DNA of 64,000 nt from assembly GCF_014489575.1 (NCBI RefSeq), contig NZ_CP060789.1:2604001-2668000 (forward strand). The letters run 5' to 3'. Below the pieces are notes generated by a model. It had not been told where the DNA came from, did not search any database, and worked only from the letters and a program-made list of their open reading frames with translations. Positions 8,569 to 56,892 of this stretch are shown piece after piece. The stretch's first letter is position 1, and each line of letters begins with the position of its first letter. Position numbers and translations under genes: made by a program. The DNA comes from Tessaracoccus defluvii (GTDB lineage Bacteria; Actinomycetota; Actinomycetes; Propionibacteriales; Propionibacteriaceae).

Positions 8569-8655
8569 GAAGAGCTGGAGAGTTGCGGGCGGCCGCTCCC
8601 TTGGGGGGCGGCCGTTTCTCGTGTGTGGGGGTGCGTGCGGCAGGCCCTCCGGATG

Positions 8656-8731: not shown

Positions 8732-8733
8732 TG

Positions 8734-9250
8734 GGCACGAATCTCCGCTGAGCCGCCGCTGTGTGCATATACACGTAGCTGCGGCTTGAGCCAGCAGAAT
8801 GCACGCCAGACCCAGATTCATGCACGGGACGGGGGGCTCGGGGCCGGGGTTGCCTGGGATGCCGGCCACCGTCGGGATCGCCTGCACAAGGCTCCGGGCG
8901 GCGCACGACAGCACTCCCCATGTGCACGAATCTCCGCTGAGCGGCCGCTGCGTGCATATGCACGTAGCTGCGGCTTGAGCCAGCAGAATGCACGCCAGAC
9001 CCAGATTCGTGCACGGGACGGGGGCTCGGGGCCGGGGTTGCCTGGGATGCGGGCCACCGTCGGGATCGCCTGCCCGAAGCTCCGGGCCGGCGCGCGACAG
9101 GCCCACGGTGAGCACGAATCTCCGCTGAGCCGCCGCTATGCGCATATGCACGTAGCCGCGGCTTGAGCCAGCGCAATGCACGCCAGAACCAGATTCGTGC
9201 ACGGGACGGGCTCGGGGCCGGAGGCGCCTGGGATGCAGATTCGTGCACGG
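8734..9250 (+). repeat. 188-bp tandem array of three palindromic elements (copies A-C)
   Basis: Elements A (8734-8826), B (8922-9014) and C (9110-9202) recur with an exact 188-bp period. Each is about 93 bp, starts with (GT)GCACGAATCTCCGCTGAGC, has a centre reading TGCATATGCA or close to it, and ends with AGATTCGTGCAC, the inverted complement of the start. The roughly 95-bp spacers are also similar (CTCGGGGCCGGGGTTGCCTG). A partial right end with AGATTCGTGCAC recurs at about 9237-9250. No promoter or gene is seen in the 847 bp between lysC and the HNH gene. The spacing and length rule out a CRISPR array. Confidence 0.85.
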
Positions 9251-12454: not shown

Positions 12455-12487
12455 GTCGGGCGGCCGGGCTCTCGTCCTTCAACAAGC

Positions 12488-41185: not shown

Positions 41186-43531
41186 TCACCCGCCGATCGG
41201 CGCCCCCGTGTTCGGGAGCCCGGGCCGCGGACGCGAGGCTGTCGCCGTAGCACTCGCGGTGGACGTCGGCGTCCTGGTCGCGCTCGCCGACGCCGTGGGT
41301 TCCGGGCTCACGCTCGGCTCCCCCGTCCGTGTCGGGGACGGCGACGGCGACGGTTCCACGTCCCCGCCCGCAAGCAGCATGACGAACACGTCACCTGCAC
41401 CGGCGTTCGAGAACCCCGCCGGCGCCCCGTACGTCAGCCCCTCCAGCCAGACTCCCGAACCGCCGACCGCGGCCATCAGGTTCGCCTCGTCCCACTCGTC
41501 GGCCCCGTCGCGTTCCCGCGAACCGAACTGGCTGATCCCGGAGACCTCACCGGCAGCGTCGATGGAGAACGTGACGACGTCGACGCCGCCCCTGCCCTCG
41601 CCCATCGCCCCGTAGGTGGTCGCCACCGCGAGCGCCCCGCCCCCCGGCGTGGCCACGATCGCCGCGCCCCGGTCGTCGGTGGAGGTCCCCAGCTGACGCA
41701 CCCACGTCGGCTCGTCGGCCCGCGCGGTGGCCCCGAAAGCCGCGACGAAGATGTCGTTGTCACCCAGCGACCCGTCACCCAGGACACCCTTGGTGTGGCC
41801 AATCGCCAGCACCGTGCCGTCGGCGAGCGCCGCGACTCCGCTGACCTGCTCGTTGACATCGCTGGCCACGGCGCCCAGCCAGGTGCGCTCGCCCGATGCG
41901 GTGTACCGGGCGACCCAGCCGTCACCGGAGCCCCTGGCCTCCAGGCCGGGCAGCCCACCGGCCGCGATGCCTCCGACGGCGACCCCGCCGCCGGGCAGCA
42001 GCGCAGCCCCGAAACCCTTGTCCTCCCCGGCCCCACCGAACTGGTCGACCCACAGGAGCTCGGCGGCTCCGCTGACCCGGGCCACGACATTGTCCTTGTC
42101 GCCGGCCGGTTCGGCCTCGCCGACCCGACCCGACGTGTAGCCCGTCAGGTAGAGGCCGCCGGCGCCGTCGGGAGCCACCCCGTAGGCGCGATCGGCCGCC
42201 GCAGGATCGCCGAACTGCAGGAAGGGCCCCGGCGTTCCGTCTGCCGCGAGCGAGACGACCACGATGTCATCCGACGGCGCCCCTCCCGCCCCGCTCGACC
42301 AGACCCCGCGCGTGTAGCCGGCAACCAGCACCGAGCCGTCCGGGCCTTCGACGACGCCGTACGCGCGGTCGTTGCCGGCGGTGCCGAGCGTGCGGCGCCA
42401 CTGTTCGGTGCCGTCGGGGCCGCGGCGGATCACGACGATGTCGAGGCCACCCAGCGGCTCATGCCCCTTCATGGCGCCGTCTGCGTTGATGACGACGGTG
42501 GTTGAACCGTCTGCGTGCTCCAGGATGCCGCCGGCCCGGTCGTCGCCCTCTGCGCCGAACAGTTCTGCCTCCCACTGGGCTGCCGGTGCGGTGCGCAGGC
42601 GTGACGCGATGTCGACGATGCCCTCCCGGAAGCCTGGCTGCCACACGTCCCAGTCGTGGCCGCCGTCCATGATCCGCAGCTCAGCCGTGACGCCGGGCAC
42701 CCGGCGGGCCGTGTTGTAGAGCTGGGCCGACTCGAAGTCGATGTCGTTGTGGGCCTCCGCCGGGTCGGGGTTGGGCCACTCGTCGTCGCCGACCGCGATG
42801 AACAGGTGCACCGGCTGGCCTGGATCAAGGTCGTCGAAGGCCCTCCCGTAGCTGAGTTCCTCGTAGCGCGCGGGGTCGAACAGTGCGTCGCCGACGCCGT
42901 AGGCGCCGTAGTCGCGGGTCGACGAATCGGCCGGCGGCTGCGGCGTGTAGACGGCGGGGCTGAGCACGAGGCCGGCCGAGAAGTCCTCCTGGTGCGCGAG
43001 CGCGAACCGCAGGGTTCCCGCGCCGCCCATCGAGTAGCCGCCGACGGCGCGACCCTCGCGGTCGTCGACCGTGCGGAAGGTGGCGTCGATGTGGTCGAGC
43101 AGGTCGACGGCGAGCGCCGTCTCCACCGCGACCCCCGGCCCGCTGGAGGCGGCCCCCGTATAGGCGGAGTCGGTGTACCAGTTGCCGCGATCGTTCCAGG
43201 GCGCGTCGGGCATCACCGCGATGATCGGCTGGATGTCGCCCGCGGCGATCAGCTCGTCGAGGTCGCCCGCGACCCGCTGCCACGCGGCCTGCGTGTCACC
43301 GCGGCCGTGCAGCAGGTAGATGACGGGGTACTCGGCATCGCTGGCCGCGTAGCCGGGCGGGAGGTAGACGCTGTAGTCGACGGCGCCGGCGGCGGTTCCC
43401 TCGACACGTCCGGTGACTATCTCGCCGGCCCGCGGCGTCGCCGGGCCTGCGGTGAGGACGGCGGCGGTCGCCACCGTCAGGCCGACGACGAGCGCGCCCG
43501 CCGTCAGCCCCTTCAGGATGTTGCCTCTCAT
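41186..43531 (-). CDS. Secreted esterase with beta-propeller-like repeats and truncated LPXTG signal
   Basis: The 781-aa protein has an N-terminal signal peptide (GLTAGALVVGLTVATAAVLT). An esterase-D/feruloyl-esterase-like alpha/beta hydrolase domain spans residues 45-310: YPVIYLLHGRGDTQAAWQ, the nucleophile elbow VGGYSMGGAGTLRFAL and the catalytic-His region MDGGHDWDVWQPGF. From about 320 to 720 come repeats around EGDDRAGGIL, GNDRAYGVVEGPDGSVLVAG and DDRGAAIVATPGGGALAVAT, resembling a seven-bladed SBBP/PQQ-like propeller. A Ser/Pro/Thr linker leads to LPNTGAPIGG and stop. The sorting motif has no following membrane helix or Arg/Lys tail, so sortase anchoring is probably lost. Monocistronic. 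Confidence 0.8.
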   Translation of the reverse strand: MRGNILKGLTAGALVVGLTVATAAVLTAGPATPRAGEIVTGRVEGTAAGAVDYSVYLPPGYAASDAEYPVIYLLHGRGDTQAAWQRVAGDLDELIAAGDIQPIIAVMPDAPWNDRGNWYTDSAYTGAASSGPGVAVETALAVDLLDHIDATFRTVDDREGRAVGGYSMGGAGTLRFALAHQEDFSAGLVLSPAVYTPQPPADSSTRDYGAYGVGDALFDPARYEELSYGRAFDDLDPGQPVHLFIAVGDDEWPNPDPAEAHNDIDFESAQLYNTARRVPGVTAELRIMDGGHDWDVWQPGFREGIVDIASRLRTAPAAQWEAELFGAEGDDRAGGILEHADGSTTVVINADGAMKGHEPLGGLDIVVIRRGPDGTEQWRRTLGTAGNDRAYGVVEGPDGSVLVAGYTRGVWSSGAGGAPSDDIVVVSLAADGTPGPFLQFGDPAAADRAYGVAPDGAGGLYLTGYTSGRVGEAEPAGDKDNVVARVSGAAELLWVDQFGGAGEDKGFGAALLPGGGVAVGGIAAGGLPGLEARGSGDGWVARYTASGERTWLGAVASDVNEQVSGVAALADGTVLAIGHTKGVLGDGSLGDNDIFVAAFGATARADEPTWVRQLGTSTDDRGAAIVATPGGGALAVATTYGAMGEGRGGVDVVTFSIDAAGEVSGISQFGSRERDGADEWDEANLMAAVGGSGVWLEGLTYGAPAGFSNAGAGDVFVMLLAGGDVEPSPSPSPTRTGEPSVSPEPTASASATRTPTSTASATATASRPRPGLPNTGAPIGG

Positions 43532-43636: not shown

Positions 43637-44494
43637 TCACCCCAGCCGGTCGGCCAGGGCGATCGTGTGACGGGCCGACTCGACCATGGCCAGGTCGAGG
43701 AAGGTCCCGTCGGCAAGTTGCAGGGCGCCGGTCCCGGAGGAGACGGCGCCGTCGATCCGCTCGAGCACCAGGCGTGCCCGCGCGACCTCGTCGTCCGAGG
43801 GCCGGAAGGACTCTCGGATCGTGTCGAGTTGGTGGGGGTGGATGGCGCTGCGGCCGAGGAATCCCCAGGAGCGGCCGACGCGACACGTGGCGGCGAGCCC
43901 CTCCAGGTCCGTGACGTGCGTCCACGCCGACATCAGCGGCGACGGCAACCCGGCCGCTCTCGCAGCGTTGACGACGCGGGCGCGGGCCCAGCCGAGGCCC
44001 TCGGTGTCGGCGACACGGAGGTCGGCGCGCAGGTCCGCCTCACCCATCCCGAGCGTCGCGACCTGCGGGCGGCGCGCCAGCTCGTACGCGAGTTCGACGC
44101 CGAGCGCCGACTCGATCAGCAGGTGCAGGTCCCGCCCCGGCAGGCGGGCAGCGAGTCCGTCGACGACCTCGACCGACTCCACCTTCGGGATCCGCGCCCC
44201 GACCCACCGCGGCAGCCCCGCGAGCGCCTCGACGTCCGCTTCGTGCCAGGGCGTTCCTGGCGCGTTGATCCGCACCTGAACATGCACGGCGTCCGCGGGC
44301 GCCGCGTCCGGGAAGGCGGCCCCGACGAGCGCCGGGATCGCTTCCAGCGACCCCCGGGCGGCGTCCTTCGCCGACGGAGCGACGGCGTCCTCCAGGTCGA
44401 CGAACACCCCGTCAGCCCCGCTGACAAGGGCTTTCGCGATCCGGTCCGGGCGGTCCGCCGGCACGTACAGCGGCGCGATCAGCAGTCGGCTCAT
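43637..44494 (-). CDS. CitE-like HpcH/HpaI aldolase/citrate lyase family protein
   Basis: The 285-aa protein has APLYVPADRPDRIAKALVSG, GVFVDLEDAVAPSAKDAARG, RINAPGTPWHEADVEAL, LLIESALGVELAYEL and GRSAIHPHQLDTIRESF, the CitE/CitE-like Mg-dependent barrel with conserved Arg, Glu and Asp metal ligands. Family members cleave or form malyl-, citramalyl- or related acyl-CoA. It is the last gene of a leftward operon and overlaps the CoA-transferase stop by four bases, which suggests the transferase supplies its acyl-CoA substrate. Confidence 0.87.
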   Translation of the reverse strand: MSRLLIAPLYVPADRPDRIAKALVSGADGVFVDLEDAVAPSAKDAARGSLEAIPALVGAAFPDAAPADAVHVQVRINAPGTPWHEADVEALAGLPRWVGARIPKVESVEVVDGLAARLPGRDLHLLIESALGVELAYELARRPQVATLGMGEADLRADLRVADTEGLGWARARVVNAARAAGLPSPLMSAWTHVTDLEGLAATCRVGRSWGFLGRSAIHPHQLDTIRESFRPSDDEVARARLVLERIDGAVSSGTGALQLADGTFLDLAMVESARHTIALADRLG

Positions 44495-45698
44495 ACGGCC
44501 CCCTCCCCACGCAGCTCCGCTATGCGGGCCGCGTCGTAGCCGAGTTCTGCGAGGACGGCGTCCGTGTCGGCCCCGTGGGTGCGGCCGGTGTGCGCGATGA
44601 CGCCGTCGTTGTCGGAGAGCCGGAACAGCGGCCCCTGCATCAGCATCGGACCCAGCTCGTCGTCGTCGATCCCGTGAATGGTGCCCAGGGCCCGGAACTG
44701 CGGGTCGGCGACGATGTCGTCGGCGTTGTAGATCGGGGCGACGGCGGCCTGGGCCTCCTCGAACGCGGCGATCACGTCGTCGCGGCTGCGCTGCGCGATC
44801 CAGGAGCCGACGGCGTCGTCCAGGACGTCGGCGTGCAGCGCCCGGTCGGCGCCGCGGGCGAACCACGGCTCGTCGATCAGCTCCGGCCGCCCCACCAGCC
44901 GCATCACCCGCTCGGCGATCGACTGCGCCGACGTGGAGACGGCGACCCAGCGGCCGTCGGCCGTGCGGTACGTGTTGCGGGGCGCGTTGTTGACGGACCG
45001 GTTGCCGGTGCGCGGCTGCACGGTGTGCAGCTGGTCCCAGCGGGTGATCTGCGGGCCCAGCATCGCGAGGATCGGCTCGATGATGGCCGTGTCGATCACC
45101 TGGCCGCGCCCGGTGACCCCCGCGCATGCAGCGCTACCATGACGGCGTACGCGGTGGCCAGCGACGCGACGCCGTCGGCCAGCCCGAACGGCGGCAGCGT
45201 CGGCGGCCCGTCCGGCTCGCCCGTGGTGGCCGCGAATCCGCTCATCGCCTCGGCCAGCGTCCCGAATCCGGGGCGCGAGCGCATCGGCCCGACCTGCCCG
45301 AACCCGGTGACCCGGGCGAGCACGAGCCGCGGGTTGCGCTCCAGCAGCACGTCGGGCCCCAGCCCCCAGCGCTCCAGCGTGCCGGGCCGGAAGTTCTCGA
45401 TCACCACGTCGGCGGTGGACGCCAGCCGGAGGAACGCCTCGCGTCCGCCGTCGCCGTTCAGGTTGATCGTGACGGTCCGCTTGTTGCGGCCCAGCGTCTT
45501 CCACCACAGGTTGACGCCGTCCTTCGCGACGCCGTGGCCGCGCGACGGGTCGGGCCGCGTCGGGTGCTCGACCTTGACGACGTCGGCGCCCATGTCGCCC
45601 AGGTGCATGGCGGCCATGGGGCCGGCGAACAGCGTGGAGGCGTCGATGACGCGCAGGCCGTGCAGCGCTCCGCGGGTGGGGTCGGTGCCGGTGCTCAT
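44491..45698 (-). CDS. Class III (CaiB/BaiF) CoA-transferase, frameshifted
   Basis: With one C restored in the run at 45117-45121 the protein is 402 aa. It has RVIDASTLFAGPMAAMHLGD, GADVVKVEHPTRPDPSRG (the catalytic Asp lies in the FxxD-type region nearby), RNKRTVTINLNGDGGREAFL, VIENFRPGTLERWGL and, after the break, QVIDTAIIEPILAMLGPQI. These enzymes move CoA between carboxylic acids. ATG at 45698 overlaps the upstream gene's stop (ATGA), and its own stop overlaps the CitE-like gene. Confidence 0.85.
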
Positions 45699-47668
45699 CG
45701 CGCCTGCTTCCCGTCGAACGCGATCCGGAACCCGACGGTGGGGCCGCGGTCGAGGCCGAAGCCGGGCCGCAGGTACTTCACCGACACCTCCGGCGGATGC
45801 ACCCCGCCCTCGACGTACCAGTCGGAGCCCTCCGCACGGTAGTGGCTGCCGCCCTTCAGCATGAGGAAGCGGGTGCGGCCGTCGCTGTGCTCCGACTCCG
45901 TCCAGTTCCACACCTCGGGGGTGCCGCGGCGGAACCCGGGCAGGCCGGCGGCCAGCTGCCATTCGTCCTCGGTGGGCAGCCTCCCGCCGCGCCACTCGCA
46001 GTAGGCGCGGGCATCGTCGAGGCCGACGTGGGTGACGGGCCGGTCCGCGTCGACGGCAGCAGGTGCGCCGTCGACCCAGTGGGCCAGGAAGCGGGCGTCG
46101 TCGGCGGGTCGCCAGCCGGTGGCGAGGAACTCGGCGAACTCGGCGTTGGTGACCTCGACGGCGGCCACCGCCACCGACGTCTCCAGCGACACCTCACGCT
46201 GCAGCGTGCGGGCGTCGTGCAGGCGCGGCACCAGCGGCTTCCACTCGTCGACGTACGGCGCCCCCTGGTACATCCCCGTCTCCCGGGCCCGGTAACGGAC
46301 GGTGAGGACGTGCTCCCCCGCGGGCACGACGACGCGCTCGGCGGGCGGCGGCCCAAAGCGGGGCCGCGGCACGATCCGGCGGGCGATCCGGTGTGGGAAC
46401 GACGCGTCCGCGACCGGCGGCTGCGCGTCGAGCTCGACGGCGACGGCGGACGCCCACGTGGGCAGCCCGGCATCGGCGGCGACGAGCACCGCGGCCGCGA
46501 CACCGCGGGCGGGCACGAGGATGCGGCCGCCGTCGGCCACGCCACGGTCGGTCAGGGCGATGGCGCCGGGGACGACGGGGCCGAGGTAGTCGGTGTCGCC
46601 GCGGTTGACGAGTGTGTAGAGCCGGACGGGCCCCTGTGTCCAGGCTGAGGCATAGACCCCTGCGGCCTCGGCCTCGTCGGCCAGTGGCGCGAGTGGCGTC
46701 CAGTCGCCGTCACGGAGCAGGTCGGCGGCGGCCCGCTGCACCGTGAGCATGCGCTTCAGGGTGGCGGCGTCGCGCGGACTCCAGCCCACCCAGACGCCGA
46801 ACACGACCTCCCACACCATCATCCCGACGCCGTTGAGCCAGGCGGACTGCAGCTCCTCGGAATGGTCGCGGTGCCAGCGGCGGATGTGGTGCTGCATGTG
46901 ACGGCGCTCGAACCAGTGCGCGCGCAGCACGCCCGGCACGGGCGAGTCGGCGAAGAACTGCGCCCACGACGTCGAATGATCGGCGATCCGCTCGACCGGC
47001 AGTTTCGACTCGCCCTCCAGGACGATGCCGGGCCGGGCGGCCTCGAGGCGGGCGACCAGCTCCGGATCGGCCTTCTTGAGCGTGTCGAGGAAGACGCCGT
47101 CGGCGCCCAGGTCGCGGACGAGGGCGGCAAGTTCGGTCACGTCGTCGTCGCCGCGGCGGGTGCCCGTGTCCCACGGGTTGTAGTCGACGAAGACCCTCAC
47201 GCCCAGCTCGTGGAGCCGGCCGACGAGCTCCCCGATGCCGGGCACCTCCCGGTAGTGGTCCCACTGGTTGCGGTCGTCGAGCCCGATGATCGGGTAGGCG
47301 TGCCACAAGACGACGGCGTCGAGGCCGCCGAGTCGTTCGCGGGCGTCGTCGAGGAACCGCTCCGGCGTGAACCGGCGCTCCTCGAAGGAGTAGAACAGTT
47401 CGTCCCACAGCCACACCTGCGCCACCGTGAAGCAGTTGGCGGCCCACGCGGCCTCGGGCCGGTCGTAGGCGGCGCCGTCGAAGCCGTGTCGGGCGCGGGC
47501 GTCGTCGCGCCACCCGTGGAGGACGGCGCGCCAGGCGTCGCGGTCGACGACGTCGGCGGGACCGACAAAGATCTTTGCCTCGTCGAGTGCGACGAGGTCC
47601 GGCTCCTCCAGCGGCACGCCGGTGGGCAGGTCGATGGGCCGGGGCACCAGCGGGTCGAACGCGTACAT
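45695..47668 (-). CDS. Barrel-type hydrolase-like domain fused to a SUMF1/FGE-like domain
   Basis: The 657-aa protein has no signal peptide. Residues ~60-330 look like a TIM barrel: LDAVVLWHAYPIIGLDDRNQ, VRVFVDYNPWDTGTRRGDDD, LGADGVFLDTLKKADPE and GIVLEGESKLPVERIAD, with Asp and Glu at strand ends as in retaining glycosidases. A beta-rich middle follows. The last ~160 residues are a SUMF1/sulfatase-modifying-like fold: VEVTNAEFAEFLATGWRPAD, RGGRLPTEDEWQLAAGLPGF and LKGGSHYRAEGSDWYVEGG. The two copper-binding cysteines of true formylglycine-generating enzyme are absent, so that activity is unlikely. AGGAGG precedes the ATG at 47668. Substrate unknown; context suggests a glycoside imported by the same operon. 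Confidence 0.65.
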   Translation of the reverse strand: MYAFDPLVPRPIDLPTGVPLEEPDLVALDEAKIFVGPADVVDRDAWRAVLHGWRDDARARHGFDGAAYDRPEAAWAANCFTVAQVWLWDELFYSFEERRFTPERFLDDARERLGGLDAVVLWHAYPIIGLDDRNQWDHYREVPGIGELVGRLHELGVRVFVDYNPWDTGTRRGDDDVTELAALVRDLGADGVFLDTLKKADPELVARLEAARPGIVLEGESKLPVERIADHSTSWAQFFADSPVPGVLRAHWFERRHMQHHIRRWHRDHSEELQSAWLNGVGMMVWEVVFGVWVGWSPRDAATLKRMLTVQRAAADLLRDGDWTPLAPLADEAEAAGVYASAWTQGPVRLYTLVNRGDTDYLGPVVPGAIALTDRGVADGGRILVPARGVAAAVLVAADAGLPTWASAVAVELDAQPPVADASFPHRIARRIVPRPRFGPPPAERVVVPAGEHVLTVRYRARETGMYQGAPYVDEWKPLVPRLHDARTLQREVSLETSVAVAAVEVTNAEFAEFLATGWRPADDARFLAHWVDGAPAAVDADRPVTHVGLDDARAYCEWRGGRLPTEDEWQLAAGLPGFRRGTPEVWNWTESEHSDGRTRFLMLKGGSHYRAEGSDWYVEGGVHPPEVSVKYLRPGFGLDRGPTVGFRIAFDGKQAR

Positions 47669-47681
47669 TCCTTGCCTCCTG

Positions 47682-49033
47682 CTACCTCCCGGCCAGCGCG
47701 ACGGTGCGCGCCGCCAGGTCGACGATCTGCTGCGGGCCGCCGGGCATCGACGTGTCGATGCGGCCCTTGAGCGGCGCCGTCCACTGCTCGCCGATGCCGT
47801 CGACGCCGAGCAGGGCCCCCGCGACAGCGCCGACCGTGGCGCCGGCGGAGTCCGTGTCCCAGCCGGCGGTGACGGCGAGCGACACCGAACGGCCGAAGTC
47901 GCCACGGCCCGCGGCCAGCGCGTAGGCGATGACGGCGGCGTTGTTCAGCACGTGCACCCAGTGCAGGTGCCCGTAGGCGGCATGGATCGCGTCGAGCGCG
48001 GCGCGGACGCCGTCCTCGCTGAGGTCGGTGGCCGCCGCCTGCACGCGGCCCAGCGCGATGGCGTCGGCGAGCGCGCTGCGCGGAGGGACGACGGTGGACG
48101 CGAGGTCGAGCGCCTCGTCGACGGAGTCCGCCACCATCGCGGCGGAGCCGAGGGCTGCGGCCCACATGGCGCCGTAGAGGCCGTTGCGGGTGTGGCTGAG
48201 CCGGGCGTCGCGCCAGGCGAGCTCGGCTGCGGCGAGCGGCTCGCCGGGGCGGATCCAGCCGAACACGTCGGTGCGGATGAGCGCGCCGATCCACTCCCGG
48301 AAGGGGTTCTGGTGGGTGGCGGTCTCCGGGACGGGACGCGCCTCGAGGATGTTGCGCAGCGCGATCCGCTCGGCGGTGAACACGCGCCCGGCGGGCAGGT
48401 TCTCCAGCCACAGCTGGGCGACGTCGTCGGTGCCGAAGCCGACGCCGTGCCGCTCGAGCAGGGCGAGCGCGAGGATCGGGTAGTTGAGGTCGTCGTCCTC
48501 GGGCATCCCGTCGATGTTCTCCTCGAGGGACGTGGGCCGGGAGCGACGGTTCCAGGGCCAGCGGGCGGCGACGTCGTCGGGCAGGCCGACCTCGGTGAAC
48601 CACCGGTCAAGGGGCCAGCGGCCGGTGGCGCGGAGGATCTCCTCGATGCCCTGCCGCGGGATCTTCTCCACCGGCTTGCCGAGCAGGCAGCCCGCCGCGC
48701 GGCCCGTCCAGGCGCCGAGCACCCGGGCCGGCAGATCCGACGGCGCGGGCCATGTCAGGCGCTCCGGAAGCAACGCGACGATGGCGTCCCAGTCGTCGGG
48801 CTCGTCGGGGGCCGGGGCCACCGGCAGCGCATCGAGCTCGTCAAGCAGCTCACGGGCGGGGGCCCGCAGCTCCGGCGTGGCCGGCACGGGCCGGCCCCGC
48901 TCACGGCCGGGACCGGGTCCCCCCCGGCCGCGACCCAGCGGGCCAGGACCCCGGCCGTGTCACGGCCATCGGCCAGCGACTGGACCAGCTCGTGGGCCAG
49001 CAGGTCCTCGGGCTGCGCCCACGTCAACCTCAT
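47682..49033 (-). CDS. ADP-ribosylglycohydrolase family protein 1, frameshifted
   Basis: With one C restored in the run at 48919-48925 the protein is 450 aa. An N-terminal helical segment (MRLTWAQPEDLLAHELVQSL) of ~90 residues precedes the ARH fold: RVLGAWTGRAAGCLLGKPVE, PEDDDLNYPILALALLERHG (metal-binding DDD) and SVSLAVTAGWDTDSAGATVG (second metal site). The fold is the dinuclear-Mg all-helical hydrolase that cleaves ADP-ribosyl or related N-/O-glycosidic bonds. Start overlaps the stop of the paralogous gene upstream (ATGA). Substrate is unknown; the operon suggests a small imported glycoside rather than modified protein. Confidence 0.82.
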
Positions 49034-50193
49034 GCCGAGGCCTCGGCGATCCGCGCGAGCTGCGCGAGCCTGTCTTCCGCCCGACGACGGTCGGCCTCCA
49101 CCAGCTCGGCGGCGACCTCGGCCATCAGGGCACCCGTGGCGCGGATGTCCATCCGGCTGGCGGTCTCGATCCGGTCCAGCCACTCGTTCGGGACGACCTG
49201 CGTGCCGCCGAGTCCGGCGCACACCGCGCCGGCCATGACGGCGATCGAATCGGCGTCGCGACCGTAGTTGACGGCGCCGAGCACGGCCCCGCGGAAGTCC
49301 CCCTGATGCGCGACGATGAAGCCGACCGCAACCGGCAGCTCCTCGATCGCCTTCGTGCGCGACGGGCGGCGCGCGTCCATCGACATCGCCCGGTACTCGG
49401 GTCCCACCGAGTCGTACGGCGCGACCGCCTCGCGGATGGCCCGGCCCAGCTCCCGGGCCTGCTCGTCGTCGGCGGGACGCCCGAACGCGGCGCCCGCGGC
49501 CGCGCAGGCCTCGATGGCGGACCGTGTCCCGTCGTGCGACAGCCGCAGGGCGGCCTCGACGACGTCGGCGACGGTGGCGCCGGGCGCGACCGACGCCGCG
49601 ACCATGGCCGCGAACACCGCCGCCGCCTCCCGCCCGTAGCTGGACTGGTGGGCCCCCGCCACGTCGATCGCCTCGGCGTAGGCGGCGTCCGGGTCTCCCG
49701 GATTGGCGAGCCCGACCGGGGCCATGTACATGGCGGCACCGCAGTTGACGACGTTACCGACGCCCGCCTCACGCGGGTCGACGTGCCCGTAGTGCAGGCG
49801 GGCGACGAGCCACTTCTCGGCGAGGAAGACGCGCTGCAACACGAGCGCCTCCGACTCCAGTTCGGGGATCCAGCGCGGCTCCCCGATCATCAGCGGCACC
49901 AGGTCCTCCGCGACGGCGTAAGCGTCCAGGTGGGCGCGCCGTCGGGCGTAGACCTCGATCAGCAGCCGGGTCATGAGCGTGTCGTCCGTGATGTGCCCGT
50001 CACCCTTGTGGTACGGCGCGATCGGGCGGGCGGTGCGCCAGTCCTCGAACCAGGGCCCGACGATGCCGGTGACCCGTCCGCCGTGGCGCTCCTCGATCTG
50101 TTCGGGCGTCCAGCCCTCGATGGCGCCGCCGAGGGCATCGCCCACGGCCGCACCGGTGATCACCGCCGTGCAGCGGTCCTCCAACCAGCTCAC
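49030..50193 (-). CDS. ADP-ribosylglycohydrolase family protein 2
   Basis: The 387-aa protein has CTAVITGAAVGDALGGAIEG, DGHITDDTLMTRLLIEVYAR (metal-binding TDDT) and GAVLGAVNYGRDADSIAVMA (RDADS second metal site), a complete ARH-type active site. It is intact. It lies 57 bp after the binding-protein gene, separated by a strong hairpin, and overlaps paralogue 1, with which it shares fold but little sequence. The pair may form two steps or two specificities in one pathway. Confidence 0.88.
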   Translation of the reverse strand: MSWLEDRCTAVITGAAVGDALGGAIEGWTPEQIEERHGGRVTGIVGPWFEDWRTARPIAPYHKGDGHITDDTLMTRLLIEVYARRRAHLDAYAVAEDLVPLMIGEPRWIPELESEALVLQRVFLAEKWLVARLHYGHVDPREAGVGNVVNCGAAMYMAPVGLANPGDPDAAYAEAIDVAGAHQSSYGREAAAVFAAMVAASVAPGATVADVVEAALRLSHDGTRSAIEACAAAGAAFGRPADDEQARELGRAIREAVAPYDSVGPEYRAMSMDARRPSRTKAIEELPVAVGFIVAHQGDFRGAVLGAVNYGRDADSIAVMAGAVCAGLGGTQVVPNEWLDRIETASRMDIRATGALMAEVAAELVEADRRRAEDRLAQLARIAEASA

Positions 50194-50217
50194 TGGTTCG
50201 CTCCTTAGAAAGGGAAT

Positions 50218-50245
50218 GGGCGGCCGCTCCCCCCAGCGGCCGCCC
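50218..50245 (-). promoter_or_regulatory. Intercistronic hairpin after the ABC binding-protein gene
   Basis: GGGCGGCCGCT and AGCGGCCGCCC form a perfect 11-bp stem with a six-base C-rich loop, 5 bp after the binding-protein stop. No U-tract follows. It probably stabilises the upstream mRNA and damps expression of the enzymes downstream. Confidence 0.6.
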
Positions 50246-50250
50246 CCGGC

Positions 50251-51575
50251 TCAGCGGTTGACCTGATCCCAGCCCGACTTCAGCTCGTCGGCCAGGCCGG
50301 CCGCGTCGATCTCATTCGCCTGGAACTTCTGGAACGCCGGGTGGCCACGGTGTCCTTCCACTGAGCGTAGGTGTCGACGAACAGGTACGGCGCACTGGTC
50401 ATGTGCTGGCCGGACTTGAGGATGTTGTCCCAGCCGATCTCGCCGGACATCTCGGCGGCGAGCGCCTCCTGCGCGGAGGTGGTGGCGGGGATCAGGGCAT
50501 CGGCCTTGTTGATCGCGGCGAGGTTCGCCGTGCTGGTGAAGTACTCGATGAACTGGACCGACTCGGCGATGTGCTCCGAGTCGACGTTGACCGACAGGGT
50601 CTGCGGGTTGGCCGCCTGATCGGCGCCCGCGGGGCCCGCGAGCGGTGGCAGGACCGTCCACTCCATGCCGTCGGGGGCGTCGTTGGCGACGTTCGCGGCC
50701 TGGAAGGAGCCCTGGATCGTCATCGCGATCTGGCCGTCGTAGAAGTACGGCAGCGTCTTGCCACCCGACAGGGTCAGCGTGACGGGCAGCAGCGACTTGT
50801 CGGTGTAGGCCATGTCGTGGACCAGCTTCGGCAGGGCCAGCTCGCCGTCGCCGACGGTGATCGTCGCGTCGGTGCCGGTGCCCTCGAACCACTGGCCGCC
50901 GAAGCCCGGCGACATCGCCATCATCGCGGCGGTCGGGCTGGCCAGCCCCCAGCCGAGGCCGGTGACGCCGTTGGCGGTGGCCTTCTTGGCCATGTCGCGC
51001 AGCTGATCCCAGGTCATGGTGTCACCGGTCGGGATCTCGACGCCGGCGTCGGCCAGCAGCTTGGTGTTGGCGAAGACCATGTAGGCCTGCAGCTCGGTCG
51101 GGTACCCGACGATCTGGTCGTCGACCGTCACGGTCTTGAGGATGCCCTCGGGAATGTCGGCCTTGTGGTCGGCGGACATGTGCTCGGTGAGGTCGGCCAG
51201 GTACCCGTCCCGCGCGAACGGGACGATGCTGGCGGCCTCGTAGTGGATGATGTCGGGCGCCGCGCCGCCGTTGAACTGGGTGATCAGCTTGTCGTAGATG
51301 CCGTCCCAGCCGGCGGGGACGATCTCGACCTGGATGTTGGGGTTGTCCTTGTTCCAGCTGTCGACGATCTGCTTGGTCACCTCGATGGCGGCCGGCTGAT
51401 CGGAGAGCGACTGGAAGGTCAGGTTCACCGGCTCGGCGGGGGTGGTCGCCGACGGGACGTCGGACGGGCCGCCCGTCGGGCTGCCGGTCGCGATGGGGTC
51501 GGTGGTGCCGCACGCCGTGAGGGCGAGGGCGGCCACCGTGAGGCCTGCGACGATGGAGGCTCCACTTCGCTTCAT
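50251..51575 (-). CDS. ABC carbohydrate-binding lipoprotein, C-terminal frameshift
   Basis: The protein (441 aa with one base restored near 50340-50345) has a lipoprotein signal ending ALALTACGTTD and a family 1 binding fold: NLTFQSLSDQPAAIEVTKQI, GAAPDIIHYEAASIVPFA and IAMTIQGSFQAANVANDAP. Without correction the last 30 residues (HPAFQKFQANEIDAAGLADE...) are replaced by a nonsense tail. It is the ligand receptor for the two permeases transcribed just before it. The ATG at 51575 has AAAGGAA upstream. Confidence 0.87.
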
Positions 51576-51629
51576 GATGGGGTTCCTTTCGGGAGGGTGG
51601 ATGCGGGTCTCGTAGGGATGGATGACGGA

Positions 51630-52457
51630 TCAGCCCTTCACCGCGCCGGCCATGAGGCCGCGGGTGAGCTTGCGCTGCATGATCGAGAAGAAGACGATGC
51701 TGGGGATCGCCGCCAGCACGGAGCCGGCGGCCAGCGGGCCGAGCGCCACCTTGCCCTCGCCGCCGACGAACATCTTCAGCGTGATGGGCAGGGTGTAGTT
51801 CTCGGGCGACTGCAGCAGCACGAGGGCGAAGAAGAACTCGTTCCAGCTGGACACGAACGAGAACATGGCCGTGGCGACGACGCCCGGCACGAGCAGCGGG
51901 AACACGATCCTGGCCAGCACCTGGAGTCGGCCGGCACCGTCGACGGATCCGGCCTCCTCCAGGTCGACCGGGATGCCCATGACGTAGCCCTGCATCATCC
52001 ACAGAGCGAACGGCAGGGTGTAGGTGGTGTGCACGAGGGTCAGGCCGAGCAGGGAGTCGGTCAGGTTCAGCGTGCGCAGGATCAGGAACAGCGGAAGGAT
52101 GATGAGGATCACCGGGAACACCTGGCTGACCAGGATCCAGCCGATCCCGACCGCGCGGATCTTCCCCTTCAGGCGGGCCAGCACATAGGCGGCGGGCATC
52201 GCAATGAGGATCACCAGCGCGGTGGAGCCGAGCGCGACGACCGCCGAGTTGAGGCCGGACGACACCAGCCCCTGCCGCTCGAGCGCCAGCGGGTAGTTGG
52301 CGAACGTGAAGTCGCGCGGGATCAGGCTGATGGCCAGCGAGTTCAGCTCGGCCGACGACTTGAAGCTGGCCGAGACCAGCCACAGCAGCGGGAAGCCGAG
52401 GAACACGATGTAGGCGGCCAGCGCCACGTACTGGCCGGTGCGGGCGACGACGCGCAT
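51630..52457 (-). CDS. ABC sugar permease (MalG type)
   Basis: The 275-aa permease has six helices starting VALAAYIVFLGFPLLWLVSA, the EAA loop DLEEAGSVDGAGRLQVLARI and the typical ending MQRKLTRGLMAGAVKG. The ATG at 52457 touches the previous gene's stop (TGATG), implying coupled translation. Confidence 0.9.
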   Translation of the reverse strand: MRVVARTGQYVALAAYIVFLGFPLLWLVSASFKSSAELNSLAISLIPRDFTFANYPLALERQGLVSSGLNSAVVALGSTALVILIAMPAAYVLARLKGKIRAVGIGWILVSQVFPVILIILPLFLILRTLNLTDSLLGLTLVHTTYTLPFALWMMQGYVMGIPVDLEEAGSVDGAGRLQVLARIVFPLLVPGVVATAMFSFVSSWNEFFFALVLLQSPENYTLPITLKMFVGGEGKVALGPLAAGSVLAAIPSIVFFSIMQRKLTRGLMAGAVKG

Positions 52458-53395
52458 CACTTCTCCCCTCGCGGATCGGCGTCCTGCCGGAACTGCGACC
52501 ACAGATAGACGGCGAGCAGTGCCACCACGACGACGACCAGCACCACACCCATGGCGGCGGCGTAACCGATGTTGCGGTTCTTGAACGCCTCCAGGTAGGT
52601 GAACAGCATCGGCAGCATCGTCTTGCCGCCAGGGCCGCCCTCGGTGAGCACGTACACCAGCGAGAACGAGTTGAAGTTCCAGATGAAGTTCAGCGACGTG
52701 ATGGACGTGACGATGGGGCGCAGGCTCGGCCAGGTGACCGATCGGAAGCGCTGCCAGGCGTTCGCGCCGTCGACGGAGGCGGCCTCGTTGAGCTCATCGG
52801 GGATCTGCTGCAGGCCCGCGAGCAGGGTGACGGTCGTCTGCGGCATGCCGACCCAGACGCCCACCAGGATCACCGCGGGCAGCGCCGTCGAGAAGTTGGC
52901 GAGCCAGTTCGTCTCCGACGGCAGCCCCATGGCGCCGAGCACCGCGTTGAGCGGGCCGCCGTTCGGCGAGTAGATCAGCTGCCACATGATGGCCACGACC
53001 ACCGGCGGCATGGCCCACGGGATGAGCGCGAGGACGCGGGTCAGCCCCTGGAAGCGGAGGTCCGCGTTGAGTAGGAGCGCCAGCCCGAGCGCGGCGAGGA
53101 GCTGCAGGAGCGTCACGCTGACGGCCCACACCATGCCGATCCGGAACGACTCCCAGAACATGGTGTTGCTCATCAGGTCGACGAAGTTGTCGATCCCGAT
53201 GAACGTGTACTCGGGGTTCCGCACGAGCCTGGCGTCGGTGAACGCGAGCGCGATGCCCACGATCAGGGGCGCGACGCTGAGCACCAGGATCGGGATCAGC
53301 GACGGCATCACCAGGAGGGCGGCCTCCTTGCGCCTCGTCCGTTCCAAGCCGGAGGCCCGCCTGCGCACCGGGGCGGTGGCCTGCGCCGTGGTCAT
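52457..53395 (-). CDS. ABC sugar permease (MalF type)
   Basis: The 312-aa permease starts with a cytoplasmic basic segment, then ALLVMPSLIPILVLSVAPLI and five more helices. The EAA loop is LNEAASVDGANAWQRFRSVT, followed by TEGGPGGKTMLPMLFTYLEA, usual for MalF-like proteins. It overlaps the LacI gene's stop by four bases. No ATPase gene is in this operon. Confidence 0.9.
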   Translation of the reverse strand: MTTAQATAPVRRRASGLERTRRKEAALLVMPSLIPILVLSVAPLIVGIALAFTDARLVRNPEYTFIGIDNFVDLMSNTMFWESFRIGMVWAVSVTLLQLLAALGLALLLNADLRFQGLTRVLALIPWAMPPVVVAIMWQLIYSPNGGPLNAVLGAMGLPSETNWLANFSTALPAVILVGVWVGMPQTTVTLLAGLQQIPDELNEAASVDGANAWQRFRSVTWPSLRPIVTSITSLNFIWNFNSFSLVYVLTEGGPGGKTMLPMLFTYLEAFKNRNIGYAAAMGVVLVVVVVALLAVYLWSQFRQDADPRGEK

Positions 53396-54417
53396 AGCTC
53401 ACTCCTCACACTGGATTCACGCACCTTCAGCTCCGGGCCGACGGTGGCCAACTGGGGCGGCTCCGGGGATTCGCCGAGCCGGGCGAGCATCAGTTCGGCG
53501 GCCAGCTGGCCTCGTCGGGTGGTGCCCAGCGAGACGCTCGTGAGCGCCGGCTGCACCATCCGGCCGATCTCGGTGTCGTCCATGCCGGTGACGGCGAGGT
53601 CGTCCGGCACGCTCAGCCCGCGCTCGCGGGCGGCACGGACGACGCCGATGGCCAGCAGGTCGTTGGCTGCGACGACGGCGTCGAGGCGGACGCCCGCGGC
53701 CACGGCCCGGTCGAGCAGCGCGTGGGCGGCCTCGACGCCCGCAGCGACGGTGAAGTCGTCCGCCACCTGGGTGCCGAAGCTGGCGGCCTGGAAGCCGGGG
53801 GCAGCGACGGCGGTGTCGTAGCCGCGCTGCCGGTGCTCGCCCGGGGTGGTGTCGGTGGGGCCGTTGAGGAACGCGAGGCTGCGGCAGCCCGCGTCGACCA
53901 GGTGCGTGACGGCCAGCCCGATGCCGCTGGCCGAGTCGGTGGAGACCGTCTCGATGCCGTGGGCGCGGAGCGACCGGCCGATCGCGACGACGGGCACCTG
54001 GGTGGCGGTGAGCAGCTCGATGAACTGGGCGTCGACGCGCAGCGGGCTGATGATGACGCCGTCGACGTGGCCGTCGTCGAGCGAGCTGAGGACGCGGGCG
54101 GCGGACGCGGCCGCGTCGCCGATGCTGGAGACGACGATGCGGTAGCCGTGCGGGGAGAGCACGCCGTGGATGGCGCTCAGCATCTCGACGTAGACGGGGT
54201 TGCCGATGTCGGCGACGGCGAACTCGATGAGGTGCGTGCGCTGGAGCCGCAGCTGGCGGCCTGCCGCGTTGGGGCGGTAGCCGAGCTCGGCGGCGGCGGC
54301 GCGGACACGTTCGACCATGTCGGGGCTTGCCCCCGTGCCGTGGAGTGCCCGCGAGGTCGAGCCGAGCGATACCCCGGCGCGCTTGGCGACCTCATGCAGC
54401 GTGACTCGAGACGACAC
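53392..54417 (-). CDS. LacI-family transcriptional regulator
   Basis: The 341-aa protein has the LacI HTH TLHEVAKRAGVSLGSTSRAL and hinge VRAAAAELGYRPNAAGRQLR, then the periplasmic-binding-like sensor (SIGDAAASAARVLSSLDDGH, VAIGRSLRAHGIETVSTDSA, VTGMDDTEIGRMVQPALTSV). As first gene of the leftward operon, overlapping the permease, it likely represses its own operon through the two GGAAACGTTTCC-type sites 25-75 bp upstream. Confidence 0.93.
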   Translation of the reverse strand: MSSRVTLHEVAKRAGVSLGSTSRALHGTGASPDMVERVRAAAAELGYRPNAAGRQLRLQRTHLIEFAVADIGNPVYVEMLSAIHGVLSPHGYRIVVSSIGDAAASAARVLSSLDDGHVDGVIISPLRVDAQFIELLTATQVPVVAIGRSLRAHGIETVSTDSASGIGLAVTHLVDAGCRSLAFLNGPTDTTPGEHRQRGYDTAVAAPGFQAASFGTQVADDFTVAAGVEAAHALLDRAVAAGVRLDAVVAANDLLAIGVVRAARERGLSVPDDLAVTGMDDTEIGRMVQPALTSVSLGTTRRGQLAAELMLARLGESPEPPQLATVGPELKVRESSVRSEL

Positions 54418-54442
54418 CGTCCCCTCCTCTCCTCATCGAGAT

Positions 54443-54491
54443 TTGGAAACGTTTCCAAGCTCGGCGCCCGAGCATTTGGAATCGTTTCCAA
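54443..54491. promoter_or_regulatory. Two LacI-type operators in the divergent promoter region
   Basis: TTGGAAACGTTTCCAA (54443-54458, perfect 16-bp palindrome) and TTGGAATCGTTTCCAA (54476-54491, one mismatched pair) are typical LacI/GalR-family sites. Their centres are 33 bp apart, about three helical turns, so two dimers could sit on the same face. They lie between the LacI gene (start 54417) and the ROK gene (start 54632). Confidence 0.85.
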
Positions 54492-54631
54492 GGATGAGCG
54501 AAGCCTGCCAGTCGCGCGGCAGGGTGTCAATGGCCCGTGACCAAATCGTGATCCTCACCCGGCTTCCCGCCTCCGCCTCTGCGGGCGTCTCGGTCGGCGT
54601 TAGCATGGTCCGGAGTCCGACAGGGGGTGCC

Positions 54632-55828
54632 ATGCGATCCGGCGCGAGCCTCTCGCACGTCAGCCAGTACAACGAGAACGCCGTCATCCACGCGCTGCGC
54701 GCGCTGGGCCCGACGAGCCAGACCGACATCGCCGCCCATACCGGCCTGTCGGTTCCCGCCGTGTCCTCGATCGTGCGCAACCTCCGCCAGGAGGGCTACC
54801 TGACCGAGTTGCGCACCGAGTCCGTCGGCAGAGGCAGGCCCCGCGTGATCGTGGACATCGTCGCCTCCGCCAACTACGCGATCGGTCTGCACATCGACCC
54901 GGCGATCATGTCGGCCGCCCTGCTCGACCTCCGCGGCCAGGTCGTCGCGGCGAACACCAGCGTCTCCATCGACCCGAACGACCCGAGCGGCTCGCTCGAC
55001 GAGGCGGCCACGTTGATCGAGGGCCTCGTCGCAGGGTCCGGCATCGACCGGGAACGCCTGCTCGGCGCCTGCGCCGCAGTGCCCGGCCCGCTCGACGACG
55101 CCACGGGCTCCCTGATCGACACCGTCTGGCTACCCAGCTGGACGGGGGTCAACATCGGCGGGGCGCTCACCCACCGGCTCGGCACGCCCGTCCCGGTGAT
55201 CAAGGACACCCACGCCGCCGTCACCGGCGAGGTGTGGGTCCGCGGCGGCGACGCGCTCGACTCGACCATGGTGTTCGTCTACCTCGGCATCGGCACCGGC
55301 ATCGGGCTGGCCATGCGGGGCGAGGCCATCCGCGGCGCCTGGGGCAATGCCGGCGAGATCGGCCGCATGCTGGTGGCCCTCGGCGACGACGACAAGCACG
55401 GCATGGACAACGACCCGTTCCACCTCGTGCAGGAGGCCCACGAACGCGGGATCCTTCCGGCCACGGCCCCGAGCCGGTGGGAACTCCACCAGCAGGAGGC
55501 CCAGCTGCGCGAGCTGTGTCGGATCGCCACGGACGGCGACGCTGGCGCCGCGGCGATCCTCCGGGCCGCGGGCGAGCGGCTCGCCGAGATGGTGGTCATG
55601 GTGGTGGAGGTCTTCGACGCCGACACCGTCGTCTACGGCGGCCCGAACTGGGAACACCTCCAGCCCTTCTACGAGGCGCCCGCCGTCGCCGCCCTCGCCC
55701 GCCCGTCCGCCCGCGGCCCCCACCCCGTGCAGGTTCTGCCCACCGTCATGGGCACGGCCGTCGGCGCGATCGGCGCCGCCTGCTTCGTGCTCGACGAGCG
55801 CTTCGCCCCGCGCCTCGGCCGCCGCTGA
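54632..55828 (+). CDS. ROK-family transcriptional regulator (NagC/XylR type)
   Basis: The 398-aa protein has an N-terminal winged helix (SQTDIAAHTGLSVPAVSSIV, RQEGYLTELRTESVGRGRPR) and a ROK sugar-binding domain (VFVYLGIGTGIGLAMRGEAI, GAWGNAGEIGRMLVALGDDD). The CxCGxxGCxE zinc motif usual in ROK proteins is absent. ATG at 54632 with AGGGGGT upstream is preferred over the ATG at 54605. It probably controls the isomerase/transporter/mannosidase genes that follow. Confidence 0.88.
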   Translation: MRSGASLSHVSQYNENAVIHALRALGPTSQTDIAAHTGLSVPAVSSIVRNLRQEGYLTELRTESVGRGRPRVIVDIVASANYAIGLHIDPAIMSAALLDLRGQVVAANTSVSIDPNDPSGSLDEAATLIEGLVAGSGIDRERLLGACAAVPGPLDDATGSLIDTVWLPSWTGVNIGGALTHRLGTPVPVIKDTHAAVTGEVWVRGGDALDSTMVFVYLGIGTGIGLAMRGEAIRGAWGNAGEIGRMLVALGDDDKHGMDNDPFHLVQEAHERGILPATAPSRWELHQQEAQLRELCRIATDGDAGAAAILRAAGERLAEMVVMVVEVFDADTVVYGGPNWEHLQPFYEAPAVAALARPSARGPHPVQVLPTVMGTAVGAIGAACFVLDERFAPRLGRR

Positions 55829-55883
55829 CGGCCCTGCGACGCGACGCCCGACGGCGACCACACCTAATGTCCGGACATTTATA

Positions 55884-55940
55884 ACGATTTGGTATCGTTT
55901 CGGAAACCCCGTTGACGGCATTTTCTCTGCATTACAGAAT
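55884..55940 (+). promoter_or_regulatory. Promoter and operator-like palindromes upstream of the iolE-like gene
   Basis: TTGACG at 55912-55917 and CAGAAT at 55935-55940 are spaced by 17 bp in an AT-rich patch. Just upstream are ACGATttggtATCGT (55884-55898) and GTTTCGGAAAC (55897-55907), inverted repeats that could bind the ROK or LacI regulator. Confidence 0.55.
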
Positions 55941-55983
55941 AAAGGTACGCACCGCCGCGTACTGACTTTCCGGAGAGCCACCC

Positions 55984-56892
55984 ATGATCAAGATCGCCAA
56001 CGCGCCCGTCTCGTACGGAGTATTCGGGCTTGCCAGGCCCGATCTGGTCACCCTGCCCACCGGCGATGCCCTCCTCGGGCTCGTCCGGGACGCCGGCTAC
56101 GAGGGGATCGACCTTGGCGCCCACGGGCTCTTCGGCACCGGCGACAGCCTGGTCGACGCCCTAGACCGACACGGCCTCGGCCTGGCTGGCGGCTGGCTCG
56201 ACTATCCATTCGCAGGCACGGACGCCGAGTTCGCGGCGGCCTTCGACGCGTCGCTGCCTGTGCTGGACGACTTCGCCCTCGTCGCGGCGGCGCAGGACGG
56301 CCCCGGCCCGCTCCCGACCATCGCCGACTCGGGCGACGCGGCCCGCAAGGCGTGCCCGGGCGGCGCCCCCGAACTGCAACTGACCGGCGCGGCCTGGGAG
56401 CGTTTCGTGACGCGGCTCGAGAAGGTGGCGGCGCATGTCCGTTCCCTCGGCCTCGAGCCGACCTTCCACCACCACGCCGTCACCTACATCGAGACGCCCG
56501 CGGAGATCGACGCCTTCCTGCGCGACACGACGATGGACCTCACCTTCGACACGGGGCACCTGCTGCTCGGCGGCGGCGACCCGGCCACCGACTTCGCGCG
56601 CTGGGCGCCGCGCGTCAACCACCTCCACCTGAAGGACGCCGACCTGCGGATCCTCGAGGCGGCGAAGGGCTCCGACAACCCGCTGCGCGACGTGTGGGAG
56701 AAGCGGGTCTTCGTGGCCCTCGGCGAAGGTGACCTGGATCTGGACGGCATCGCCACCGACATCCTCGCCAGCGGCTTCTCCAGCTGGCTCGTCGTCGAGC
56801 AGGACATCGTCGTCATGTCCGAGGCGGACCTGCAACGCGCCATCGCGGACCAGGTGGCCAACCGCGACACCATCCGGCGGTGGTTCGCATGA
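55984..56892 (+). CDS. Sugar phosphate isomerase/epimerase family protein (IolE-like)
   Basis: The 302-aa AP-endonuclease-2-type TIM barrel has KIANAPVSYGVFGLARPDLV, VRDAGYEGIDLGAHGLFGTG, LEPTFHHHAVTYIETPAEID (metal ligands), LTFDTGHLLLGGGDPATDF and VNHLHLKDADLRILEA. It resembles inosose dehydratase or xylose-isomerase-like epimerases. Together with the next gene, a Gfo/Idh oxidoreductase, it likely oxidises and rearranges the sugar brought in by the operon. Overlap ATGA with the next gene. Confidence 0.83.
   Translation: MIKIANAPVSYGVFGLARPDLVTLPTGDALLGLVRDAGYEGIDLGAHGLFGTGDSLVDALDRHGLGLAGGWLDYPFAGTDAEFAAAFDASLPVLDDFALVAAAQDGPGPLPTIADSGDAARKACPGGAPELQLTGAAWERFVTRLEKVAAHVRSLGLEPTFHHHAVTYIETPAEIDAFLRDTTMDLTFDTGHLLLGGGDPATDFARWAPRVNHLHLKDADLRILEAAKGSDNPLRDVWEKRVFVALGEGDLDLDGIATDILASGFSSWLVVEQDIVVMSEADLQRAIADQVANRDTIRRWFA

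Follow-up and report, generated by a model that had tools for sequence, protein, structure and literature searches.

What might a soil actinobacterium import and degrade with a single gene set that joins a sugar transporter to two ADP-ribosylglycohydrolase (ARH)-fold proteins, a barrel–SUMF1 fusion, a CoA-transferase and a CitE-like lyase? The question is raised by a nine-gene locus of Tessaracoccus defluvii (RefSeq assembly GCF_014489575.1, contig NZ_CP060789.1), which lies within the 64,000-nucleotide stretch of DNA analysed here (the window; positions 2604001–2668000 of a one-contig genome of 3.86 Mb, with coordinates below counted from the first base of the window unless stated otherwise). 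Our preferred answer, to which we assign a probability of about one half, is that the locus constitutes a catabolic operon, under LacI control, whose substrate is a small glycoconjugate composed of a pentofuranose, most likely ribose, and an organic hydroxy-acid. The parts of this answer that are directly supported are the gene content, the gene order, its conservation, the operator, the predicted folds and the catalytic motifs; each of the reactions, the identity of the pentose and the identity of the acid are what we infer.

The nine genes, of nine families, run along the minus strand from 54417 down to 43637. First stands a LacI-family regulator (53392..54417; PF00356 and PF13377, the latter, Peripla_BP_3, at 116 bits), followed by two CUT1-type ATP-binding cassette permeases with BPD_transp_1 (PF00528) matches, one MalF/UgpA-like (permease 1, 52457..53395; its best NCBIfam model is UgpA, under whose cut-off it falls) and one MalG/GlcU-like (permease 2, 51630..52457), and by an extracellular sugar-binding lipoprotein (SBP, 50251..51575; PF01547, SBP_bac_1, 130 bits). 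Next come two ARH-fold hydrolases, ARH1 (49030..50193) and ARH2 (47682..49033, with an N-terminal extension), matching ADP_ribosyl_GH (PF03747, cut-off 26.2) at 158.3 and 153 bits, respectively, and then the barrel–SUMF1 fusion (45695..47668; FGE-sulfatase, 64 bits), a class III (CaiB/BaiF) CoA-transferase (CoA-T, 44491..45698; CoA_transf_3, PF02515, in two adjoining pieces of 233 and 129 bits) and a CitE/RipC-like acyl-CoA lyase (43637..44494; HpcH_HpaI, PF03328, 91.9 versus 25 bits). All of these Pfam scores stand well above cut-off and, together with the positions of the open reading frames (ORFs), they confirm the families, the single strand and the order that a preliminary description had read from the letters of this DNA. 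Its statement that nearly all junctions are ATGA-type overlaps requires correction, since genes overlap at five of the eight junctions, by one to four bases: as read from the DNA, LacI/permease 1, ARH1/ARH2, fusion/CoA-T and CoA-T/CitE share ATGA, and the two permeases share TGATG, with the start of permease 2 at 52457 overlapping the stop of permease 1. The other three junctions are gaps of 13 nt (ARH2/fusion), 54 nt (permease 2/SBP) and 57 nt (SBP/ARH1). A G+C-rich stem-loop, noted by eye at 50193-50265 between the SBP gene and ARH1, possibly sets a higher expression of the SBP.

Two operator copies precede the regulator gene. A LacI-type operator, TGGAAACGTTTCCA, is found without mismatch at 54444..54457, 26 nt upstream of the lacI start, and a second copy with one mismatch lies 33 nt further upstream at 54477..54490. 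Only 0.04 matches to the operator are expected in shuffles, the entire genome has no site besides these two when up to two mismatches to the 16-base form are allowed, and in 59 of 74 relatives the LacI gene is likewise preceded by a palindrome of this class. The overlapping junctions and the operators unique to this promoter argue for a single local transcription unit, which is presumably self-regulated.

Conservation provides the strongest indication that these genes belong together. When one genome per species was scanned, relatives of the fusion barrel were encountered at 387 places, the best 80 of which were fetched as named loci, with Tessaracoccus coleopterorum providing the closest named barrel relative among them, at 93% identity. 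In 73 of these 80 loci the full set of nine is found with order and orientation unchanged, so that the gene set, on whose conservation in related genomes the preliminary description had made its proposal depend, is indeed conserved. A stricter ORF test is passed by 70 loci under 27 genus-level labels, with L043, L051 and L058 failing over a missing ORF call even though all nine genes are present. The seven loci lacking the full set consist of five short pieces that end at contig ends (L026, L030, L048, L091 and L093), a gapped scaffold (L031) and a Nocardiopsis locus (L066). The overlaps are preserved as well, fusion/CoA-T in 69 of 70 loci and CoA-T/CitE in 65 of 70. Among eight further loci of the same taxonomic order, chosen for their adjacent ARH genes, seven have the set in a ten-gene form that is described below. 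The nine genes are therefore together by more than chance. An importer cluster that merely came to lie beside unrelated acid-metabolism genes might be suspected from the patchiness of the set, since near-full-length fusions are present in just 6 of 147 family genomes (T. defluvii included, two of them in pieces) and a strong barrel match occurs in its own genome only within a phylum-wide draw of 396 genomes. Such a coincidence is refuted by the conserved order and overlaps, as well as by a second assembly of the same gene types in rhizobia, which makes it scarcely credible. Horizontal transfer would be a natural guess for the patchy spread. Two loci also contain insertions, a secreted-looking gene on the opposite strand between ARH1 and ARH2 (10486-12984 of L182, genome G555; 10984-11808 of L184, genome G564) within an otherwise complete operon; L182 has another inserted ORF, 550 codons long, which as judged by eye may be of phosphatase type.

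Comparison with these relatives also reveals that three of the nine genes of T. defluvii (SBP, ARH2 and CoA-T) carry a reading-frame break, which the preliminary description had overlooked. The break in the SBP gene, near 50340, leaves its last ~27 residues in another frame; that in ARH2, near 48886, places the real start at 49033 in another frame; and that in the CoA-T, near 45110–45125, splits the gene. In the relatives, ORFs reaching at least 90% of the median length are intact in 77 of 78 cases for CoA-T, 74 of 74 for ARH2 (its N-terminal extension uncounted) and 75 of 75 for the SBP, for which reason sequencing or assembly error is the likely cause of the three breaks. Gene decay was considered and is disfavored by these intact genes, by the Tessaracoccus sister-species locus L058, where nine of ten genes give matches in more than one frame at other places, and by two PfkB genes elsewhere in the T. 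defluvii genome that seem split in two. A coding-phase scan of the whole window proved too insensitive for counting such breaks, as it missed those already known.

If the operon is catabolic, which bond would its two ARH proteins attack? The motifs TDDT and DxDS, which we take to hold the metal-binding residues, are invariant in all 78 aligned ARH1 sequences, and for ARH2 the DxD is invariant, with a first metal motif that reads DDD, not TDD, in 77 of 77 rows. The predicted model of ARH1 matches MJ1187, DraG and ARH3, and the nearest solved relatives of the two proteins are DraG, MJ1187, the ADP-ribosyl hydrolase 6dre and ARH3. The fold is thus held in common with the DraG/ARH1/ARH3 ADP-ribosylhydrolases, as are the TDDT and DxDS motifs in the case of the operon ARH1. 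This kinship would favor a quite different role, in which ADP-ribosylated proteins or nucleic acids are the substrates of the ARH proteins, and these control the operon or the importer, much as DraG does nitrogenase, leaving the CoA-T and the lyase to serve an unrelated acid. We find this very improbable: scores fall far under the DraG and Tri1 equivalog cut-offs (ARH1 61 versus 337 and 44 versus 490, respectively; ARH2 25 and 21), no transferase partner could be discerned among the genes of the operon, and ARH genes come in twos or fours and recur alongside an importer and a ribokinase. The operon proteins also differ from DraG/ARH1/ARH3 in their genomic setting, an import-and-catabolism operon with two or four ARH-type genes, and, in the case of ARH2, in the DDD motif.

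The neighbourhoods of other ARH genes offer a more general comparison. We contrasted 20 ARH places of the same taxonomic order with 20 controls, both sets having been placed by hand. A PfkB-type kinase gene lies near six ARH places (this operon included) versus one control, and none of the 19 ARH places outside this operon has a detected CoA-transferase nearby. CUT1 permeases lie near a single ARH place, namely this operon, versus two controls, and the notion that ARH genes in general might serve as markers of sugar-importer operons is accordingly unsupported. The T. defluvii genome itself encodes two more ARH places, both beside CUT1-type importer genes, at genome positions 3449000-3463000 (L140) and 373000-387000 (L141). 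One of these includes a split PfkB kinase gene and a gene that seems GH2-like by eye; the other has a LacI gene and a 696-aa ARH protein. In E. coli, yegU and yegV form an ARH plus sugar-kinase pair, and the ARH place of T. defluvii that adjoins a PfkB kinase gene, here in two pieces, resembles this arrangement.

The barrel–SUMF1 fusion is present as the preliminary description had reported, which overlooked both the probable nature of its barrel and the cysteines missing from its SUMF1 domain. The barrel and a beta-sandwich occupy residues ~1-435 and the SUMF1 domain, of the formylglycine-generating enzyme (FGE) fold, residues ~438-657. No Pfam match to the barrel piece is obtained even at E 10; its model predicts a GH13/GH129-like (beta/alpha)8 fold accompanied by the beta-sandwich. 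If GH13 residue roles may be applied to it, as we assume, then D195 and E220 are the candidate catalytic residues, and both are invariant in 50 rows and shared by two distant relatives. No FGE cysteine pair is present in the SUMF1 domain, as there is no invariant Cys column; the columns with at least 10 Cys among the 50 rows (557, 649 and 650) are not paired at the place where we would expect the copper-binding cysteines of FGE to be. With these cysteines absent, a role as an FGE-type oxidase was rejected. In comparison to formylglycine-generating enzyme, EgtB and SenA, the SUMF1 domain encountered here is thus distinct both in having no conserved cysteine pair and in being fused to a glycosidase-like barrel. 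A distant relative of the fusion is encoded on a Sphingopyxis plasmid (L018, 2327-8379), where a TonB receptor gene is followed by a ribokinase gene, the fusion relative, a beta-L-arabinofuranosidase-type gene and a CoA-transferase gene, the product of which is without the catalytic aspartate. An attempt to name the imported ligand from the SBP was dropped, as its nearest solved structures are diverse sugar-binding proteins of low similarity.

As for the sugar half, the most informative gene is one that the T. defluvii operon does not contain and that the preliminary description overlooked. In 61 of the 70 loci tested, a ribokinase-type gene is inserted between ARH2 and the fusion as a tenth gene. 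Its residues GSxNxD, GGKGANQA, E and AGD, which correspond to the ribose-site and catalytic residues of ribokinases such as E. coli RbsK, are conserved throughout, or almost throughout, an alignment of 68 rows. The ribosyl-type bond that had been proposed for the ARH substrate therefore gains support from this gene, which points to a ribosyl sugar half. PfkB-type genes are present elsewhere in the T. defluvii genome. The sugar could instead be some other pentofuranose, such as apiose or arabinofuranose, or else a larger oligosaccharide that is trimmed by two to four ARH proteins and the barrel, the acid being bound through an ester linkage. Another pentose is possible because the ribokinase-type genes fall under a curated ribokinase cut-off; CUT1 importers generally carry oligosaccharides; the distant fusion relative of Sphingopyxis lies between a ribokinase gene and a beta-L-arabinofuranosidase-type gene; and a secreted esterase is encoded behind the operon. 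This last gene, a possible accessory outside of the core (41186..43531, minus strand), begins 105 nt downstream of CitE on the same strand, with a G+C-rich stem-loop discernible by eye in between. Its product has delta-60/SBBP propeller repeats and an LPNTG-like end and matches feruloyl-esterase and polyhydroxyalkanoate-depolymerase models, in both cases under cut-off. Such an esterase gene immediately follows CitE, in the same orientation, in just 20 of 80 relatives. This proportion speaks against the second view of the sugar, as do the retained ribose-site residues, and we consider that view rather unlikely.

The acid half is indicated by the last two genes. Apart from the CoA-T, the genome yielded no PF02515 gene. 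In the relatives, the ORFs of the CoA-T have a median of 402 aa, and the Asp of the GQxxD motif, which we take to be the class III catalytic residue, is conserved in 77 of 77 operon members. Its best NCBIfam matches are the formyl-CoA transferase, mesaconate CoA-transferase and glutarate CoA-transferase models, whose curated cut-offs it fails to reach (at best 218.6 versus 442 bits in the intact relative L039, Georgenia satyanarayanai, with the cut-offs of 700 and 750 missed as well). In the lyase, VRxN, DLED, E and D, to which we ascribe the metal- and carboxylate-binding roles of CitE, are present in 98-100% of 82 rows. RipC and CitE are the best curated models for it, and its best PDB matches are the acyl-CoA lyase beta chains 9nzb and 8khl; the RipC cut-off of 375 is missed by both the window protein (124.6) and that of L039 (135.7). 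The class III CoA-transferases acting between succinyl-CoA and mesaconate, malate or glutarate (PMC5592240) are of the same family as the operon CoA-T, in which the catalytic Asp is kept; the GNxH loop conserved in Mct and YfdE (PMC5592240) reads GNRS here, as judged by eye. Pairs of a CoA-transferase with a CitE/RipC-family lyase are described in two further reports (PMC12290011, PMC6689899), and the operon has the same pairing, except that, unlike in those systems, the two genes are preceded by those of an importer and of glycosyl hydrolases.

Which acid such a pair would accept is constrained by what surrounds it. A hydratase gene of the itaconate-cluster type is absent between CoA-T and CitE, where the genes overlap by 4 nt (none was sought elsewhere in the genome), and an operon without such a gene suggests that the acid should arrive already hydroxylated. 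The lyase family does not fix the acid, given that its mycobacterial relative Rv2498c is reported to be both an (S)-citramalyl-CoA and an (R)-3-hydroxy-3-methylglutaryl-CoA (HMG-CoA) lyase (PMC6689899). Citramalate-, malate- or HMG-like acids would all fit. An attempt to name the acid from the neighbours of the closest CoA-transferases was dropped, as these neighbourhoods differ, and citramalate-like or HMG-like acids fit best: the Haloferax enzyme has HMG-CoA lyase and isopropylmalate-dehydratase-like genes as neighbours, that of Rhodococcus adjoins a dihydroorotase-type gene with an MmgE/PrpD gene and a CoA ester lyase nearby, the Burkholderia stretch includes an aldehyde dehydrogenase and a PrpD-like gene, and the Sphingomonas neighbours are other CoA-transferases and a ring-hydroxylating dioxygenase. 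The acid could also be made from the sugar itself, through activation and then cleavage of a sugar acid, and, as a matter of chemistry, the 3-hydroxyl of aldonyl-CoA esters could in principle make them substrates of a CitE-type lyase. We regard this as improbable in view of the operons, inside of which no dehydrogenase, lactonase or dehydratase gene recurs (the clustering of neighbouring genes being noisy); most junctions have no room for an additional sugar-acid gene, and a ribokinase alongside would compete for the sugar. The preliminary scheme of import, cleavage, CoA activation and retro-Claisen cleavage remains the best-supported reading, on the strength of the conservation, the rhizobial assembly and the ribokinase-type gene; the sugar-derived acid that it had also entertained is less likely, as no oxidoreductase is recurrent in that same noisy clustering.

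Evidence that the two halves are handled separately comes from plasmids. ARH1 matches were found in 23 plasmid records, 14 of which were fetched (13 alphaproteobacterial plus one of Nonomuraea). The alphaproteobacterial loci encode LacI, two permeases, SBP, ARH1 and a UgpC ATPase in 13 of 13 cases, ARH2 in 12, CoA-T in eight and the CitE-like lyase in seven; those that come with annotation list no fusion gene. A ribokinase-type match is present in three of the five loci without CoA-T and in none of the eight with it; of these three matches, one is a fragment and two lie on the opposite strand upstream of LacI. Rhizobial ARH2 has 699 residues, with the Pfam match confined to the first 300 in the two that were scanned. 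In a tree of 23 of the 78 operon CoA-Ts and nine other enzymes, which comes with a long-branch warning, the rhizobial CoA-T is placed apart from a supported clade uniting the actinobacterial CoA-T with enzymes of Burkholderia and Rhodococcus that occur in other genomic contexts. This placement, together with several differences at the motif positions of rhizobial CitE, suggests that the same core probably acquired its CoA-T/CitE acid branch on more than one occasion. Other, actinobacterial variants include Nonomuraea (L127), with two extra ARH-like genes (6961-9004) making four in a row, a ribokinase-type gene and no fusion; the genome G557 (L185), likewise with two extra ARH-like genes (about 11690-13590) and four in a row, CoA-T and CitE and no fusion; and a simpler operon on a Mycolicibacterium plasmid, which consists of LacI, an ARH2-like gene, the importer, a ribokinase and UgpC only. 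The sugar and acid branches come and go separately and thus appear to be separable modules, as would be expected for a substrate that yields two products.

Upstream of the T. defluvii operon, the stretch from 54317 to 58055 contains, by eye, a divergent ROK-type regulator, a sugar-isomerase-like TIM barrel and a Gfo/Idh/MocA-like oxidoreductase, after which an ORF near 57886 appears to be out of frame.

Based upon these features, the following route can be proposed for a pentofuranoside of a hydroxy-acid. The compound would be imported by the SBP and the two permeases, energized by an ATPase that would have to be encoded elsewhere in the actinobacteria and is encoded within the operon (UgpC) in rhizobia. 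Its glycosyl bond would then be cleaved by the metal-dependent ARH1 and ARH2, and a further glycosidic bond may be trimmed by the GH13/GH129-like barrel, the SUMF1 part probably being a binding module. The freed pentose would be converted to its 5-phosphate by the ribokinase, for which T. defluvii would need a PfkB-type kinase encoded elsewhere. The freed acid would become a CoA ester through the class III CoA-T, and this ester would be split by the CitE/RipC-like lyase in a retro-Claisen reaction; a citramalate-like acid would give acetyl-CoA and pyruvate.

Several points weigh against this proposal. Firstly, no pentoside of a hydroxy-acid is known to us that occurs in nature in sufficient abundance. 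Secondly, the sugar kinase is missing from the operon in the window, where ARH2 and the fusion are separated by their 13-nt gap, and three ribokinase-type members from the relatives score 267, 263 and 237 bits versus the 299.65 cut-off of TIGR02152. Thirdly, the gene set can come apart: Nocardiopsis L066 has the importer, ARH2 and the fusion without LacI, ARH1, CoA-T or CitE, which indicates that the parts are separable. To these may be added the patchy distribution within the family and the phylum, the motif differences of rhizobial CitE, the lack of CUT1 permeases at the other ARH places of the comparison and the three genes that are broken in this assembly.

The preliminary description knew of no pathway with this set of enzymes, and the literature likewise gave no description of the operon, its compound or its pathway in the titles and abstract beginnings covered, which include few subscription papers. 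It is tempting to speculate, and we do so tentatively, that ARH-fold enzymes were adopted as dedicated glycosidases for a small natural product, a pentofuranoside of a hydroxy-dicarboxylic acid, whose abundance in soil and around roots was sufficient for an importer and a two-branch pathway to be assembled for it in actinobacteria and in rhizobia separately. The SUMF1 fold, for its part, gains an unusual partner in the GH13/GH129-like barrel. More broadly, the operon suggests that part of the ADP-ribosylglycohydrolase family, whose members are usually annotated as protein-modification enzymes, are carbon-source glycosidases, and it represents an apparently undescribed catabolic route that points to a sugar–acid compound which many soil and root bacteria may eat.

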